Assembly (NCBI GenBank): GCA_030432295.1
Contig: JAUIHI010000004.1
Location: 233,540-297,539, forward strand
Length of the DNA: 64,000 bases
Source of the DNA: Anaerolineae bacterium
GTDB lineage: Bacteria; Chloroflexota; Anaerolineae; Caldilineales; Caldilineaceae
Direction of reading: 5' to 3'
Positions 9,685 through 60,619 of the stretch are shown here, one piece after another. Numbering within the stretch: position 1 is the first letter of the stretch; each line of letters begins with the position of its first letter. Under the pieces are notes generated by a model that was not told the origin of the DNA, ran no database searches, and saw only the letters and a list, made by a program, of their open reading frames with translations. Position numbers and translations under genes: made by a program.

Positions 9685-9923
9685 GGGCCTGCTCAACCGG
9701 ATAGAAGCTTCTATGAATAAGTACATTCGGCACTAAAATCAGCCACCCCCCTCTCCTACTAATTGCCGGTTTTGCGCCATAAAAATACAAAAAAAGTAAA
9801 AGCAATTCTCTGCATCGCTCTGTCTCTGCGCATCTGTAATGGCCCAAATGAGGATGGAAAGAGCAGAACGCAGATAAACACCGAGGGACGCGGATTTTTG
9901 CCTATGAACCCGTGTCTACCCGG

Positions 9924-18056: not shown

Positions 18057-19444
18057 GCAGCCTTCGCAAACCCACCACCCGCGCCGGCGTCATCGGAACC
18101 GGCCACTTTGCCACGGCAGTTGTCACCCAAAGCGAATCGATGACCGATTTGCAGGTGGCTGCTGTGGCCGACCTGAATCCGGAAGCTGCCCGCCGGGCCT
18201 TTCGCCTGGCCGGTGTGCCCGACGACGCCATCGCCTTCTGCGAAAACCGGGCCGAAGCGCTGGCTGCACTGGAAAGGGGCCAGCGGGCGATTGTCGAGGA
18301 CGCGCTGCTGCTGATGGACCTGCCTGTGGATGTGATTGTGGAATCCACCGGCGTGACGGAAGCGGGCGCGCGCCACGCCCAGGCCGCCATTGCCGCGGGC
18401 AAGCACGTGGCGATGGTCAGCAAGGAAACGGACAGCGTCGTCGGGCCGATGCTGGCCCATCTGGCCCGACAGGCCGGGGTGAGCTATACGCCGGTGGACG
18501 GGGACCAGCACGGCCTGCTCATCGAACTGGTGCGCTGGTGCCGGATGCTGGGGCTGGAGGTGCTGGCCGCGGGCAAAGCCAGGGACGGCGAATATTTCTA
18601 CGACCGCACAGCCCTGGAGGTGCGGGGCGGCGAGTACGTGCTGCGCCTGCGCAGCCGGGACAGCCGCTGGCTCGCGCCCCTGCGTCCACTCAATCTGGCC
18701 GGGCAGTTGCAGGAGCGGATGGACTTTCTGGCCCCTCTGCCCGGCGTGGGCGGCTGGGACCTGACCGAACTGGTCATCGCGGCCAACGCCCTCGGCCTGC
18801 GCCCGGACGATCCATTCGACGGAACCGGCGGCGGACAACTCCACGGCCCCGCACTCTACACCACCGAAATCCCCGGCGTCTTCTGCCCCAGGGAAATGGG
18901 CGGCATTCTGGAAAACCGGGGCGTCATCGAAGTCCTCACCTCCCTGCGCATCCCGGAAGCCGCGGGGCTGGGCGGCGGCGTCTTCGCTGTTGTCCACGCC
19001 GACACCGACTATTCCCGGCAGATTCTCGCCACCAAAGGCTGTCTCGCCAATGCCAGCGGCGACGCGGCTCTCATCTACCGCCCCTATCACCTCTGCGGGG
19101 TGGAGACACCTGCCACACTCCTGGCCGCGGCCCAATCCGGCCATTCCACCTATGATGAAAGCTACCGTCAGAAGTGGGATGTGGTGATGGTGGCTCGTCG
19201 GGACCTGGCCGCAGGGGAGACGCTGGGCACGGATCACAGCCCGGATGTGGAGGCGCTGATCGCCCCGGTCCAGTCCATCCACGACGACGGGGCCTGGCTG
19301 CCGATTCATCTGGGCAGCGGCCTGCAACTGCGGCGGGATGTGCCAGCAGGCACGCCGATCCCAGTGGGCGCGGTGGAACGACCCGCTGGTTCGGTCCTCT
19401 GGACGTTGCGCCAAGAACAGGAAAAAATATTGGGCATTGGATAG
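18053..19444 (+). CDS. NAD(P)-dependent oxidoreductase, homoserine dehydrogenase-like, with C-terminal SAF domain
   Basis: Rossmann start RAGVIGTGHFATAVV, followed by VVAD and VDVIVESTGV strands, then a long catalytic half and a C-terminal SAF segment (VARRDLAAGETL ... LRRDVPAGTPIPVGAV). TTG 18053 overlaps the sulfatase stop (TTGA), so translation is probably coupled. Related proteins act in sugar-acid metabolism, but the reaction here is unknown. The last residues (ILGIG) are encoded by the left arm of a dispersed repeat (19428-19443), so the native C-terminus may have been replaced. Confidence 0.7.
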   Translation: MSSLRKPTTRAGVIGTGHFATAVVTQSESMTDLQVAAVADLNPEAARRAFRLAGVPDDAIAFCENRAEALAALERGQRAIVEDALLLMDLPVDVIVESTGVTEAGARHAQAAIAAGKHVAMVSKETDSVVGPMLAHLARQAGVSYTPVDGDQHGLLIELVRWCRMLGLEVLAAGKARDGEYFYDRTALEVRGGEYVLRLRSRDSRWLAPLRPLNLAGQLQERMDFLAPLPGVGGWDLTELVIAANALGLRPDDPFDGTGGGQLHGPALYTTEIPGVFCPREMGGILENRGVIEVLTSLRIPEAAGLGGGVFAVVHADTDYSRQILATKGCLANASGDAALIYRPYHLCGVETPATLLAAAQSGHSTYDESYRQKWDVVMVARRDLAAGETLGTDHSPDVEALIAPVQSIHDDGAWLPIHLGSGLQLRRDVPAGTPIPVGAVERPAGSVLWTLRQEQEKILGIG

Positions 19445-19498
19445 TTGACGGTGGCACGGCGTGTGCCACACTACAAAATATCCAATACCCAATATCTG
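19428..19498. repeat. Family D palindrome (TATTGGGTATTGG type)
   Basis: Left arm ATATTGGGCATTGGATAG overlaps the end of the SAF-domain gene; right arm AATATCCAATACCCAATAT lies at about 19476-19494. The loop holds a second perfect palindrome, GTGGCAC/GTGCCAC. Other copies: near 21775 (partial), 38248, 58214 and 58853. Confidence 0.8.
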
Positions 19499-33078: not shown

Positions 33079-33171
33079 ACCTCTCCCTTCTATCCCCGGC
33101 AATATCTCACCAGCAATTTCTATTGTGATACCCGATGGCTATGCGTTTCGCACCCATTTATCAAAATCTGT

Positions 33172-33303
33172 ACTGATCAGCAGGATGATTAAACAAAAAA
33201 TGGGACGCTGATTCACGCAGATAAACGCTGATCCAGAGGCAAAAATCTGCGTTTTTCAGCGTTTATCTGCGTCCAACTTTTTCACCATCAGTCTGATCAC
33301 CAC
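33172..33303. repeat. Nested palindrome: family N arms around a family B core
   Basis: Outer arms TGATCAGCAGGATGATTAAA (33174-33193) and TTTTTCACCATCAGTCTGAT (from 33278) enclose inner arms built of ACGCAGATAAACGCTGAT and CAGCGTTTATCTGCGT. The same outer arms near 44896 enclose a different core. The right outer arm is read as the C-terminus of adenosine deaminase. Confidence 0.75.
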
Positions 33304-34366
33304 ACCATTTATCAAAATCAGCCAAAAGTGCGCGCTTCAGGCCCGGCTCCGCATAGGAAGCCAGGAATGCGTTGCGGGCAATGCGGATCAGATTGGCCTT
33401 GTTGTAGCCAAAAGTATCCGACAGCAGACGGTACTCATCCAGCAGGCTGGTGTTGAAAAGGGGCGGGTCGTCGCTGTTGATCGTGACAAACAGCCCCATC
33501 CGGTCCAGATGGGGGAAGGGGTGCTGCTCGGCGCTGGAATAGACGCCCAGGCAAACATTACTGTAGGGGTTGATTTCCAGGGGAATCTGCCGCTCTTGCA
33601 GATGCAGGAGCAGGGCCGGGTCTTCCAGTGCCCGCACCCCGTGACCGATACGCTCCGCGCCCAACGCGTTCAGCGCCCCCCACACGCTGGCCGGGCCTTC
33701 CATCTCCCCGGCGTGGGGCAGGGAGTGCAGACCCGCCGCTTTGGCCTTTGTAAAGGCGTGGGCAAAGGGTTCCGGTGGCGCGCCCACTTCGTTTCCCCCC
33801 AGACCAAAGCCGATGACACCGTACTCCATCCCATAGAGCGCCTGGGCCAGGGTCGTATCCGCCGGAAAAGGGTCATAGGGCCTGCCCGGCTTCAGGCTGA
33901 CATTGCGGGGAATGTCCACCACCCAGCGCATCTCCACGCCAAAATCCCGACGTGCCCGTTGCCGCCCATCCTCCAGCCCCGCAAAAATCTCTTCAATCGA
34001 AATCTCTTTGCCCTGCAAATGGGTGTGGGTGAAGGTCGTAATCGTACATTCCCGGTAGCGGATGCCCTGGGCCGCCATATCCTCGCCGTTGCGATAGGCG
34101 ATGGTGGAGAAATCCTCGCCGGTGCGCAACAACTCCTGAATCGCACAGAAAATATCGACGAAGTGGTCGAAATCCCGAAAGACAAACCAGCGCCGCAGGG
34201 ACTCCTCATCCTGGGCGGGCAGGCTGTCCAGTCGCCCGTGGACCGCGGCCAGTTCCAGCACAGTGGCCGGCTGGATGGCTCCTTCCAAATGGATGTGGAG
34301 TTCGGCTTTGGGCAGGGCACGCAGGAAGTCAGTGATTGAGGGCAGGCTGACGGCGGCAGGTGGCAT
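33263..34366 (-). CDS. add: Adenosine deaminase family hydrolase
   Basis: Metal-binding HIHLEGA, catalytic segments SLPHAGE, ERIGHGVRAL and NSDDPP, and FGYNKANLIRIARNAF are diagnostic for adenosine (or adenine) deaminase, which converts adenosine to inosine in purine salvage. ATG 34366 gives 367 residues, close to the usual size; the frame stays open far upstream only because it is antisense to the next gene. The final residues (about GDQTDGEKVGRR) are encoded by a dispersed repeat, so the original C-terminus has been changed. Confidence 0.88.
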   Translation of the reverse strand: MPPAAVSLPSITDFLRALPKAELHIHLEGAIQPATVLELAAVHGRLDSLPAQDEESLRRWFVFRDFDHFVDIFCAIQELLRTGEDFSTIAYRNGEDMAAQGIRYRECTITTFTHTHLQGKEISIEEIFAGLEDGRQRARRDFGVEMRWVVDIPRNVSLKPGRPYDPFPADTTLAQALYGMEYGVIGFGLGGNEVGAPPEPFAHAFTKAKAAGLHSLPHAGEMEGPASVWGALNALGAERIGHGVRALEDPALLLHLQERQIPLEINPYSNVCLGVYSSAEQHPFPHLDRMGLFVTINSDDPPLFNTSLLDEYRLLSDTFGYNKANLIRIARNAFLASYAEPGLKRALLADFDKWCGDQTDGEKVGRR

Positions 34367-34408
34367 TTGTGGTATACTTTCGCAGCTAGTGATTGGCTCG
34401 ATACAGAC

Positions 34409-34437
34409 GTTATACCATTCCGCCCGACAGGGGTCAA
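34409..34437 (-). promoter_or_regulatory. Promoter of adenosine deaminase gene
   Basis: On the minus strand TTGACC (34437-34432), 17-bp spacer, TATAAC (34414-34409), about 43 bp before the start codon. Confidence 0.6.
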
Positions 34438-34438
34438 T

Positions 34439-35794
34439 TTGTCTTCCAAAGCGTCCGAACGCCTCTCCTATATTGTTCGCTGGACAGGCCACATCCCCCA
34501 ATCTGTGCTCACCCTGCGGTTGTTGACCGACCGGTTGCCCTCCGCGCGCGCCTTTCTCTCGCTGCTGGTTACGCTTAGCATTACCCTCAGCTTTGTGGGT
34601 GGAAGCGCAGCCAGCGACGGCCAGGCCCGCTTCCAGACTATCGGCGCGCTGGTAGGCAGCCGGGCCTTTAGTCTGGTCGGCTGGGAATGGCAGGCGCTGG
34701 GCGAGAAGATCCAAAGCTGGCGGTCTGGGGTGGGCGCGGGGCTGACCACCGAGCAGGAACGAGCGGTGGTGTTGGGCTATATCGAAGGGATGCGCCGGGT
34801 GCGCACGGCCCAGGAACGGGTCAACCGGCTGGTGAGTTTGGATGCTGCCCCGGATGAACTGGCCCAGGCCCGCAGCGATCTGGCCGATCTGCGCCAGAGG
34901 CAAGCAGGCCGTCGCCCCCTGGCCGAGGCGGTGATCCAGCGCCAGGTGGGGCAGATGCTCATCGACACCGGTCTGGGCATCAATGGCGCGCCTGTGCCGC
35001 CGGTCAACTTCACATTTACTGAGCCGCCCCAAATCCTCATCATCAGCCCCCGCCAGGAGATTCGTAACGTCTACGCCCGGATGCTGGTCCCGGACATCGA
35101 CAGCGCGGAGGCGGGCCAAAAAGAGGGGGCCATCGCAGCCCAGACCGATTACTCCGCCTACATCACAAAAATCGGCGGGCTGGGGGCCTACCCCACAATG
35201 GTGGTGGAGAGCACAAACATCGAATGGCTGGTCTCCACAGTGGCCCACGAATGGGTGCACAACTATCTGACCCTTTTCCCCCTGGGCATGCGCTTTGGCA
35301 GCAGCCCGGAACTGACGACCCTCAACGAAACTGTGGCCGATATTGTGGGCGACGAAATCGGGCGGCGGGTGCTGCTCCACTTCTACCCGGAATTTGCGCC
35401 CAGACCCATCCGCCAAGCCCAGACCCAGACAGCCCCCACCCCTGCCGAGCCGGAAGACCCATCGGTCTTCGACTTCAACCGGGAGATGGGCAAGACCCGA
35501 CGACAGGTGGACGAACTGCTGGCAAATGGCGATTATCTGGCCGCCGAGCAATATATGGAGAGCCAGCGCCAGGTCTTTGTGGAGAACGGCTATCACCTGC
35601 GGGTGCTGAACCAGGCCTACTTCGCCTTTCACGGCAGCTACGCCACCGGCGGGGCCAGTTCCAGTCCCATCGGCGCGCAGTTGCAGGAGCTACAACGAAA
35701 AACCCCGGACGACATTGCCGGATTCCTGCATACCGTGCGCTGGTTCACCAGCGCGGCGGATTTGGCGCGGGTGCTGGAGATGGCAAAGCCATGA
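34439..35794 (+). CDS. Membrane-anchored zinc metalloprotease-like protein
   Basis: A hydrophobic N-terminal segment (AFLSLLVTLSITLSFVGGSAAS) suggests export or anchoring. HEWVHNYL supplies a HExxH zinc site, and the downstream LNETVADIVGDEIG could give the third ligand, a gluzincin-like pattern. TTG 34439 is a tentative start: the frame opens at 34367 directly against the adenosine deaminase start, and no in-frame ATG precedes the hydrophobic segment. A possible -10, TATACT, lies at 34373. The stop overlaps the sfsA start (ATGA), so the two are translationally coupled. Substrate unknown. Confidence 0.68.
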   Translation: MSSKASERLSYIVRWTGHIPQSVLTLRLLTDRLPSARAFLSLLVTLSITLSFVGGSAASDGQARFQTIGALVGSRAFSLVGWEWQALGEKIQSWRSGVGAGLTTEQERAVVLGYIEGMRRVRTAQERVNRLVSLDAAPDELAQARSDLADLRQRQAGRRPLAEAVIQRQVGQMLIDTGLGINGAPVPPVNFTFTEPPQILIISPRQEIRNVYARMLVPDIDSAEAGQKEGAIAAQTDYSAYITKIGGLGAYPTMVVESTNIEWLVSTVAHEWVHNYLTLFPLGMRFGSSPELTTLNETVADIVGDEIGRRVLLHFYPEFAPRPIRQAQTQTAPTPAEPEDPSVFDFNREMGKTRRQVDELLANGDYLAAEQYMESQRQVFVENGYHLRVLNQAYFAFHGSYATGGASSSPIGAQLQELQRKTPDDIAGFLHTVRWFTSAADLARVLEMAKP

Positions 35795-42865: not shown

Positions 42866-42870
42866 AGCAG

Positions 42871-42933
42871 AAGAAACTGAGTTTTTGCGGCTTGACCAGC
42901 CTACGCAAGGGTCAGCAAAAAACTCAGTTTCTT
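42871..42933. terminator. Hairpin (family J) after the SNF2 gene
   Basis: AAGAAACTGAGTTTTT (42871-42886) pairs with AAAAACTCAGTTTCTT (42918-42933), with an inner pairing TTGACC/GGGTCAG. It lies 5 bp after the SNF2 stop and can act as terminator. Confidence 0.6.
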
Positions 42934-42963
42934 CGCGCAATGGATGATTGGATGATCCCTTAC

Positions 42964-44849: not shown

Positions 44850-45090
44850 GGGACGCTGATGCCGCTGAAGAAGATGATTGACGCAGATCTTGTGCTGATC
44901 AACAGGATGATGAAACGTTATTTTTCAACGCAAAGATGCAAAGACGCAAGGACGCAGAGGAGAACCCATAAATCTTTGCATCTCTGCACCTTTGCATCTT
45001 TGCGTTGAAAATTTCACCATCATTTTGATCACTACAGATTGACGCAGATTTTATCAGCGGCAATCTGTGGTTTCTGCGAAATCTGCGCCC
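44850..45090. repeat. Triple-nested palindrome (families B, N and C)
   Basis: From outside in: B arms (GATTGACGCAGATCTT near 44877; AGATTGACGCAGATTTTATC near 45036), N arms (TGATCAACAGGATGATGAAA at 44896-44915; TTTCACCATCATTTTGATCA at 45012-45031), and C arms (TTCAACGCAAAGATGCAAAG from 44934; TTTGCATCTTTGCGTTGAA near 44991). The N arms match those at 33172. With the promoter and operator below it accounts for the whole gap before the GntR gene. Confidence 0.75.
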
Positions 45091-45133
45091 TATTTCCCGT
45101 TGAGAACGGAAACAAATTTCGGCTGCCGCGAAA

Positions 45134-49111: not shown

Positions 49112-49157
49112 AACCAAAAAGGGCCGGATTGCAAGTGCAATCCGGCCCTTTTTGGTT
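49112..49157. terminator. Bidirectional terminator between korB and plsC
   Basis: A perfect palindrome with 22-bp arms (49112-49133 and 49136-49157) centred on AGTGCA-type loop bases. It has A-runs on one side and TTTTTGG on the other, so it can stop both converging transcripts. Confidence 0.88.
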
Positions 49158-49815: not shown

Positions 49816-49898
49816 GGGCGGTGGGTTCCTGAATGTTTGGCTTTGGGATTTGTATTCATGCCCATTTCGGGCACAATCAGCAACGAAAAACGGAAGCT

Positions 49899-49963
49899 GA
49901 TGACGCGGAAAGGGTGGACTGACGCTGATTTAATCAGCGCATATCAGTTGTTTCCGCGTCATC
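49899..49963. repeat. Nested palindrome upstream of plsC
   Basis: Outer arms GATGACGCGGAAA (49899-49911) and TTTCCGCGTCATC (49951-49963) are perfect over 13 bp. They enclose the perfect inner palindrome CGCTGATT-T-AATCAGCG (49923-49939), a family B core. Confidence 0.75.
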
Positions 49964-49980
49964 CGCGTCCTATCTTCCGG

Positions 49981-57931: not shown

Positions 57932-60619
57932 TTATTCTACCACAATTGAAATGACTTCCGTACGTTCAGTTGGTCCACCTGCGTTCTGTTCGCCTTCCAG
58001 CCAGAAGCGATGGGGACCGGAGGCCAGTTGCCACCAGCTTTCGACGGCGGTGGCCTTTTCCGCCTGGGCGATCACTTCCCCATCCACCAGCAGACGCAGG
58101 CTGTGCCAGACGCCACCGCTGGCATAACCCCGCACGGGCAGCCGCTGCCGCTCTGCGGGCACGCCGGGATGAAGGGCGTAGGCCGAATTGGGCGTCGGTG
58201 AAGTGATAGTCAGGGGTGGGGTATTGGGTATTGGATATTGGGTATTGGGTGGGGATGTATTGCCCACGAAATATCCAATATCCAATACCGGAATTCCCTG
58301 AGATTTCATCCAGTCCGCGTACTCTGGGCCGAGATTCCAGTAGACCCGTTCGCTGATGCGGGCGGCGGGTGTCTCCGCGTCGGCAAGCTGGCCGGTCGCC
58401 CGGTCGATGGCGACGCGGACAAACTGATCGTCGGGACGGGTCGGCTCTGTGCCGGCGATGAAATTTTCCCGGCGCAGGCGCGGGCATTCCTGGGTGGGTA
58501 GCAGCCCGCTGGGCGCACAGATGGTGACCTCTGCAACAGTGGCCGGGCGGGTGAAAGCAGGCGGCGCTGTGGGGTGCGCGGCCAGCATTATATCCCGCCA
58601 GATCGGCCCAGCGCCGTCGATGCCGGTGACGCCCACCATCGGGCTGTTGTCCGCATTGCCCACCCAGACCCCCACCAACCGCTGACTGGAAAAACCGACC
58701 GTCCAGTTGTCCCGCCAATCCGTCGTCGTCCCCGTCTTGGCCGCGGCGGGGAAGGGCAATTCCACCACCGATCCTTCGCCAAAAGCAGGCAACCGGGCGA
58801 TGGGGTCCGAGAGGATGTCAGTGATGAGGAAGGCGGTCGCGGGTGAAATGACGGTTGGGGATTGGATATTGGGTATTGGGTATTTGGGTAGTGACGATTG
58901 CACGCTGGATGCCAAATATCCAATATCCAATATCCCTTTTGGTTCGAGCCGATAGCCGCCTGACGGAAAAACCCCATACGCCGCGGTCAAATCCAACAAC
59001 GAAACTTCCCCACCGCCGAGGGTGAGGGCCAGGCCGTATTCGCCGGTGAAGCTGCCGATGCCCGCAGCGCTGGCTATGCTTTGCAGGGTAGTCACACCGA
59101 TGCGTTGCAGCACTTTCACAGCGGGGATGTTATAGCTGTTGGCCAGGGCCTCCCGCACAGTCACCGGGCCGTGATAGCGCAGGTCATAGTTTTCCGGGCG
59201 ATAGGCTCCGGAATCGCCAAAAGAGCCGTTGGCGGCCACCGCGGTCCCCCGCCCGCCCGGAAAAGCCGTGGGCAGATCGGCCAAAATCGAGGCGGCGGTG
59301 AGGGGTTCGACCCCGGCCTGGCGGCTCCATTCCGGGTCCAGCGCGGCCGCGTAAGTCAGGGGTTTGATAGCACTGCCCGGCTGGCGCTGGGAGAGGACCG
59401 CGTTCACATTGCCCTGGTTCGACTCGTCGAAATAGTCCGGGCTGCCCACCATCGCCAGAATCTCACCACTGGCCGCGTCCAGCACAATCGCCCCACCGTT
59501 ACGGGCCACTGCGCTATTGCCGGCCACTTCTGTGCCCGGATCGCATTCAGTCTGCCCGCTTGTGCCCTTCTTCTGCCCCTGGGGAAGACAATTCAATTGG
59601 GCCAGACGGCGAGTGACCGCGGCCTGGGCCTGGCGCTGCAACCCCAAATCGAGGGTCGTGCGCACTTCCAGCCCGCCGTCCCGCAGCCGGTCCACCCCCA
59701 CGGCCCGCACCAGTTGGTCCTGAATGTACATGACAAAATGGGGCGCTTCGATGGCGAAAAGCTGGGAACGGTAGCGCAGGGGTTCGGCCGCGATCTGGTC
59801 GGACTCGGCCTGGGTGATAAAACCCGCGTCTGCCATCAGACGCAGAACAGTCAGTTGACGGTTCTTGGCCGTCTCCGGGTCGGCAAAGGGATTGTAGCCG
59901 GTCGGGTATTGGATCAGCCCGGTGAGCAATGCGCACTCGGCTCGGCTCAGTTGGGCCCCGGGTTTGGCAAAAAAGTTTTGGGCCGCGGCCTCCAGGCCAA
60001 AGGCAAAGTTGCCGTAGTAGGTCTGGTTGAGATAGAGACGCAGCAGTTCGGCTTTGCTGTAGCGCAGTTCCAACTGGAGGGCCAGCACCGCCTCGCGCAG
60101 TTTGCGGTCATAGCTCTGGACGTAGCGTTCCTCCGGCTCCATCAGCACCGAGCGGGCCAATTGCTGGGTCAGGGTGCTGGCCCCGCTGACAATCGCACCG
60201 TCCGCGCGCCAGTTCTGCCAGAGCGCCCGGCCAATCGCCAGTGGGTCCACGCCGGGATGCCAGAAGAAGCGACTATCCTCCGTGGCCAGGGTCGCCTGGA
60301 CACAGGCGTCGGGGATACCCGCGATGCCATAACGGCTGCCGGGCGCGGCATCCGCGGCCAGGTCAATCTGCTTGCCCGCGTTGGGGTCCAGCACTTCGTA
60401 GAGCAGCCGCCCGTTGCGGTCCAGGATGCGGGTGGTGGGGCGCACCAGCCGGGATTCCAGATCGTCCACAGAGGGTAGTTCGGCCAAAATTGTCAGACGC
60501 AGGGCCAGCAAGCCGCCCAGGAAAAGGAACAGAATCAGGGCAAGCCAAAACCTGCCAGGTTTTCTGAAACCTGGCAGGTTTTTTCGGATGCGGGGGGCGG
60601 GCGTCGGTGTTGTGTTCAT
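57932..60619 (-). CDS. pbpC: Penicillin-binding protein 1C (transglycosylase/transpeptidase)
   Basis: A membrane segment ([17 protein letters not shown]) is followed by a glycosyltransferase domain ([45 protein letters not shown]), a transpeptidase domain with S416-A-I-K419 (PGSAIKPL), SYN (NSYNIP) and KTGTT, and a C-terminal BiPBP_C-type domain, which together define PBP1C. ATG 60619 is used. Three dispersed repeats lie in frame: [10 protein letters not shown] before the membrane segment, [11 protein letters not shown] before the KTG box, and [11 protein letters not shown] before the C-terminal domain. It is first in a unit with A2M. Confidence 0.93.
58214..58298. repeat. Family D palindrome in pbpC, copy 1
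   Basis: Left arm GTATTGGGTATTGGATATTG and right arm AATATCCAATATCCAATACC enclose a loop of about 30 bp. It is read in frame as part of the linker to the C-terminal domain. Confidence 0.8.
58853..58940. repeat. Family D palindrome in pbpC, copy 2
   Basis: Left arm GGATTGGATATTGGGTATTG and right arm AAATATCCAATATCCAATAT, loop about 35 bp, within the transpeptidase region upstream of the KTG box. Confidence 0.8.
60547..60584. repeat. Family F palindrome in pbpC
   Basis: AAAACCTGCCAGGTTTTC / GAAACCTGGCAGGTTTTTT; shares its core with 14034-14065. It encodes [12 protein letters not shown] just before the membrane helix. Confidence 0.78.

Follow-up and report, generated by a model that had tools for sequence, protein, structure and literature searches.

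Gene-less shell elements with exchangeable palindromic cores, nested in palindromes and in one another, in a Caldilineaceae genome

Palindromic elements of the 64-kb window

The window, that is, the whole 64-kb stretch of DNA analysed here (G000:C39:233540-297539), belongs to a 6.72 Mb assembly of 61 contigs and contains three copies of a short element, termed a shell, in which inverted ends enclose a palindromic core. At the focal site, a 146 bp shell (NC, 44891-45036) consists of N ends at 44891-44916 and 45011-45036 with a C core between them, the palindrome of the core (AACGCAAAGATGCAAAG and its partner) occupying 44922-45011 with inverted arms at 44922-44959 and 44974-45011. The shell is bordered by two forward-strand copies of a 15 bp target duplication, GATTGACGCAGATCT at 44876-44890 and GATTGACGCAGATTT at 45037-45051, which agree at 14 of 15 bases, and it interrupts, near the centre, a bare B-type imperfect palindrome at 44850-45096 (right edge approximate; palindrome-centre score 11). 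The two flanks of the shell, when joined, align with a bare palindrome elsewhere (L131) over 91 bp that include the join, at 82%. The original prediction had read this arrangement as three nested pairs of arms, with B outside N and N outside C; the outer layer stands in part, as a separate palindrome around a shell whose entry is marked by the 15 bp duplication with its one mismatch.

The second shell (NB, 136 bp, 33169-33304) is flanked by exact 15 bp duplications (33154-33168 and 33305-33319) and carries a B core, of which the unit GGACGC...GCGTCC lies at 33200-33275; these edges are approximate, and bare copies of the unit are conserved only between them. The third (136 bp, 1174-1309) has a C-like core, and its 16 bp duplications (1158-1173 and 1310-1325) show 2 mismatches. 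At 44850-45090 and 33172-33303 the arms and the order in which they follow are as had been proposed and far beyond chance, as a search of the own genome allowing up to 3 mismatches returned 164 matches to the shell end, and 3 when the reversed pattern was used as a control. N and C had been taken for separate layers. The 146 bp N+C unit is spanned in full by 35 of the 40 genome places scored (190 first-look candidates), so that at the N/C step the arrangement is one long family; the flanks of most NC copies are unrelated to one another. The proposed exchange of cores between similar arms holds, NB being a second family with the same kind of ends that is near full length in 10 of the 40 places scored (117 candidates). 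The palindrome at 49899-49963, put forward as a further nested example, turned out to be part of a bare, un-nested B2 palindrome (49885-49977) of a single family: outer pair and core are both covered in 19 of the 24 distinct places, and no shell ends were found at any of the 30 fetched loci of this 49880 type, which correspond to those 24 places because six appear on both strands.

Several other features of the window were recorded. An adenosine-deaminase-like ORF on the reverse strand (33263-35632) runs into the NB element at 33169-33304, which holds its final 14 codons (13 residues plus a stop codon). The Pfam domain of the 789-residue product stops at residue 776, immediately ahead of the NB-encoded tail; the NB insertion probably rewrote the C-terminus of this ORF. 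A lone decayed shell end (9835-9860, forward strand, score 20.0) is followed by B-like sequence. Palindromes of the TATTGGGTATTGGATATTGG type are located at 19427-19495, 58220-58289 and 58861-58935, and a copy of this palindrome elsewhere is the target of a shell (L026). The palindrome GAAGAAACTGAGTTTTT lies at 42870-42934, and another genome, G004, has a comparable hairpin beside a RAYT-like gene (L265). A perfect 22 bp inverted repeat with a 2-base gap (49112-49157) is perhaps a terminator. No matches to known RNA families were found within the window.

Ends, duplications and distribution of the shell family

Shells of this family are gene-less and share inverted ends of about 25 bp with the consensus TGTAnTGrTCAnnnnGATGrTGrAA, flanked by a duplicated target of about 15 bp. 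A set of 108 pairs of shell ends was gathered from the fetched loci without use of duplications and without requiring TGT...ACA; as the loci had been fetched for resemblance to shell elements, the counts refer to the family rather than to the genome. The best target duplication was 15 bp in 68 pairs, 16 bp in 8 and 14 bp in 2, giving a duplication of 14-16 bp in 78 of the 108, with none in the other 30. Exact duplications peaked sharply at 15 bp, with 44 cases, and no other length from 2 to 30 bp had more than 4. Five of the 108 pairs span more than 160 bp, three of which (L028, L032 and L317) join the ends of nested elements. A second set, chosen by TGT...ACA and a 15 bp duplication with up to 2 mismatches, comprised 61 verified elements after 2 of 63 candidates had been dropped for dissimilar ends. 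These range from 67 to 154 bp in length, which leaves no room for a transposase gene, and positions 2-4 and 12-14 of the duplicated target are rich in A/T. Among the loci examined, no end-bearing, duplication-flanked element longer than 154 bp was found besides a 299 bp nested pair. The 67 bp shell (L068) has lost most of its B core and still has an exact target duplication, indicating that the whole core is not needed for movement.

Shells resemble MITEs in being short and non-coding, with terminal inverted repeats and a target duplication of defined length; as no autonomous relative with shell ends was found in the loci examined, they are named only MITE-like. An rve transposase had no match in the own genome, and shell ends were found at 0 of 21 rve loci in 25 genomes, a set that does not include the shell-bearing G017 and G020; the best single end score at these loci was 12.7, whereas verified ends score at least 21.0. 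According to published accounts, the IS481 and IS1202 groups include members with TGT...ACA ends that duplicate about 15 bp of target (PMC10045372, PMC10132070). The shells are like these groups and their non-autonomous derivatives in both features, and unlike them, as described there, in being gene-less, in having palindromic cores and in having no rve gene accompanied by the ends in the genomes searched (PMC10045372, PMC10132070). The shell may therefore work like an IS481/IS1202 element, though it is not assigned as a member.

Shell ends with up to 2 mismatches are present in 17 of 41 genomes, the own genome included. All six congeners carry them, with 9 to 175 end matches each, as do two genomes of the same family (70 in G020 and 19 in G017), and each of 8 further genomes has 1 to 3 matches, which may be chance. 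A stricter end pattern, applied to a genome contig collection, returned 44 stretches, 38 of which are in Chloroflexota records (Caldilineaceae, Litorilinea-labelled and one 'Chloroflexi bacterium'); the other 6 have no second end near by. Viral contigs contained no shell ends, and the C motif was found in 5 viral stretches, none of which had shell ends on reading.

Nesting and insertion sites

Shells occur within shells. In L219, a 299 bp NC element with a 15 bp duplication (1 mismatch) contains a 137 bp NB element with an identical 16 bp duplication, NB having entered NC near one end. The reverse arrangement is seen in L028, where an NC element with an exact 15 bp duplication interrupts the B core of an NB element; the flanks of this NB element in turn read as a 15 bp duplication with 2 mismatches. 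Once joined, the two sides of the NC site match an NB copy without interruption at 91% over 115 bp. The joined site of L301 likewise matches an uninterrupted relative at 90% over 112 bp. In another species (L317) an NB element also holds an NC element, with no clear duplication seen. Nesting thus occurs both ways, NB in NC and NC in NB, with duplications at both levels. The duplications order the layers in time, so that the nesting can be taken as a record of successive insertions, testable in related strains. An orthologous empty site was sought upstream of a GntR-like gene, where the sequence differs in all six congeners read.

The position of shells relative to palindromes was scored at the verified sites. 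A palindrome-centre score of at least 11 was obtained at 15 of the 61 sites and at 34 of 2273 control positions, which were placed 150-900 bp from the site and in this test were not restricted to intergenic DNA. When the test was slid along the target, 12 of 59 sites scored at offset 0 and 10 at +/-8 bp, and 1-5 of 59 at offsets of 24-80 bp. Palindrome centres are thus favoured as shell targets, yet the majority of insertions lie elsewhere. The original proposal that elements insert into the loops of other elements is accordingly upheld for elements within elements (L219 and L028) and for a preference for centres, and not for loops as an exclusive target. Insertion into loops only was rejected, since palindrome centres account for a minority of the sites and NB, in L219, went into NC close to an end.

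Cores and mode of spread

REP-like palindromes are widespread in bacteria, and their mode of spread is only partly known. The cores carried by the 108 end pairs were labelled by motif rules made for this analysis, which gave 60 pairs with C, 26 with B, 10 with D and 4 with E, 2 with nested B and C, and 6 with other sequence. The B core ends in GCGTCC and is a possible CGTC-tagged REP, a type that bears an unpaired CGTC tag at one end; the D core (GTAGGTGCGG...CCGCACCTAC) is a GTAG-edged palindrome pair found both bare and in shells, and the E core contains hairpins of the GTAGGTC[C/G]G type.

The NB query retrieved 30 B loci, of which 14 had both shell ends, 2 had one and 14 had none; 4 of the last group (L044, L050, L051 and L056) retain shell-like sequence, and the other 10 were counted as clean. 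Alignment of the clean bare copies showed that GGACGC...GCGTCC is kept with little conserved outside, whereas shell copies run on into the ends. Two bare B units (L046 and L048) lie within a further palindrome (GAACGCGGATGACGCGGATTGGGCGGAT and its partner), with no obvious duplication. The proposed check, whether each family occurs both alone and inside others, comes out positive for B, whose bare copies have the edges seen in shells. For C, 27 of 30 loci have both ends and 3 have one, so that the case for C as an independent unit is weak. Two further C places look bare on reading (C47:222259 and C27:31191). These two bare C copies (L223 and L225) are apparently in the same position beside two similar genes.

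Of the 26 D loci fetched, three (L341, L355 and L361) were not placed and one (L343) has one end only. D is bare at 5 of 5 loci of the own genome and 5 of 5 of G017, which also holds one D shell flanked by an exact duplication (L202), and it is in shells at 6 of 8 loci of G001 and 6 of 8 of G020. The D unit flanks Y1/RAYT-like genes in the own genome (L266) and in G001 (L254), and B and C were not seen among the inverted repeats at the 6 Y1 loci examined of the 7 in the own genome (all but L269). Other RAYT-like genes (L255, L271, L273 and L259) have different palindrome families of their own at their flanks. The same REP-like unit occurring bare, beside a RAYT-like gene and as shell cargo would constitute a second route of spread.

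The reading that we favour, with reasonable though not full confidence, is that gene-less transposable shells carry varied palindromic cores and have entered palindromes and each other, likely mobilised in trans by a DDE transposase. Such an enzyme, not found here, would move the shells through their ends. A core would enter a shell as an inserted REP-like unit, in the case of D probably by means of its RAYT transposase, and the transposase of the shell would then multiply shell and core together. If this transposase prefers A/T-rich sites, which the loops of palindromes would often offer, shells would land in repeats above chance. Two kinds of small genomic parasite would in this way probably spread in part by nesting.

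Ordinary MITE families, each type being an internally deleted insertion sequence with its palindromic middle left over, cores not being acquired as units and the nesting being due to chance insertion into abundant intergenic repeats, would explain why the most similar ends usually share a core (mean nearest-end distance 4.6 within the same core, 8.7 to other cores), and would sit well with the fixed N+C family and with the majority of sites lying off palindrome centres. This origin is nevertheless unlikely. Bare B and D units have the same edges as in shells and D is tied to RAYT-like genes, which argues that the middles are not leftovers of one insertion sequence; in addition, clusters of similar shell ends include mixed cores, and palindrome centres are enriched as targets by the counts given above (15/61 against 34/2273).

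Recombination or template switching at the palindromes might instead have exchanged cores among shells, in place of an insertion of REP-like units, an explanation that we consider quite improbable. It is favoured by the tree of ends, in which the ends of the NC element of the window are close to both NB and NC ends, and by the loop of the D core, which is found in both orientations between the same ends. It leaves unexplained how four core types first arrived in shells, and the tree cannot count swaps: built on 50 columns, it needs 15 core changes where the least possible is 3, a figure that is not firm because only one of its 72 inner branches is well supported. The D-core loop was scored in six elements (L183, L198, L207, L276, L290 and L310), with one orientation in 2 of 6 and the other in 4 of 6, which indicates rearrangement between the palindrome arms, as though these permitted inversion of the loop. 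That the outer palindrome, N and C are one long composite repeat copied as a unit is scarcely credible, as N+C is truly one unit but is surrounded by a target duplication of the outer layer, most NC copies lie in unrelated flanks, and both NB in NC and NC in NB occur. The idea of a fixed three-layer composite was accordingly kept for N+C and discarded where the outer layer and NB/NC are concerned.

Returning to mobile shells that acquire REP-like cores, a stronger form, entertained only tentatively, is that two unrelated parasites feed each other, DDE-type shells with a preference for palindrome centres dropping into REP-like repeats and REP-like repeats, one of which is RAYT-linked, into shells. 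If this were true, an open-ended, reciprocal Russian-doll spread would extend across the Caldilineaceae, in which the core can change without loss of the mobility of the shell.

Parts of this picture have close precedents, which are compared here on the basis of the available portions of the cited papers. The insertion sequences IS1397, ISKpn1 and IS621 target REPs (PMC1525189), and the shells are like them in landing, as a transposable element, within palindromic repeats, and unlike them in being gene-less, in themselves carrying palindromes and in having a minority of insertions at centres. REP dimers within palindromes are described in A. variabilis, T. roseum and H. neapolitanus (PMC3733652), where an outer palindrome likewise surrounds REP units; each outer palindrome is reported with a single REP family in the portion available, whereas the shell is mobile, as judged by its 15 bp duplications, and has several cores. 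QMITE2 of Coxiella burnetii is a MITE with a GTAG REP and a target of IS1111 (PMC5896051; reviewed in PMC10969869). It matches the shells in being MITE-like, in containing a REP-like unit and in being itself entered by another element, and differs in that one MITE with one REP is described, whereas shell cores vary between copies and shells enter each other (PMC5896051). The D core is like RAYT-associated REP/BIME sequences (PMC2817692) in being a GTAG-edged palindrome pair flanking RAYT-like genes, and unlike them, on the text available, in also being found inside a duplication-flanked shell, with B and C unseen beside such genes.

The published record thus already includes insertion sequences within REPs, REPs within palindromes and a MITE with a REP inside it, and the view that the nesting mode as such was undescribed gives way to these precedents (PMC3733652, PMC1525189, PMC5896051). 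What appears to be new is one shell with exchangeable cores and mutual nesting: in the titles and abstract openings of the open-licence papers searched, no description was found of one shell family combining the two, nor of shell elements in Caldilineaceae. A further instance of nesting was observed in G020 (L191, L345, L348 and L351), where one hairpin of the D core holds a second, GTCCGACCGCAGCGGTCGG-like palindrome in its loop, which is another nesting layer.
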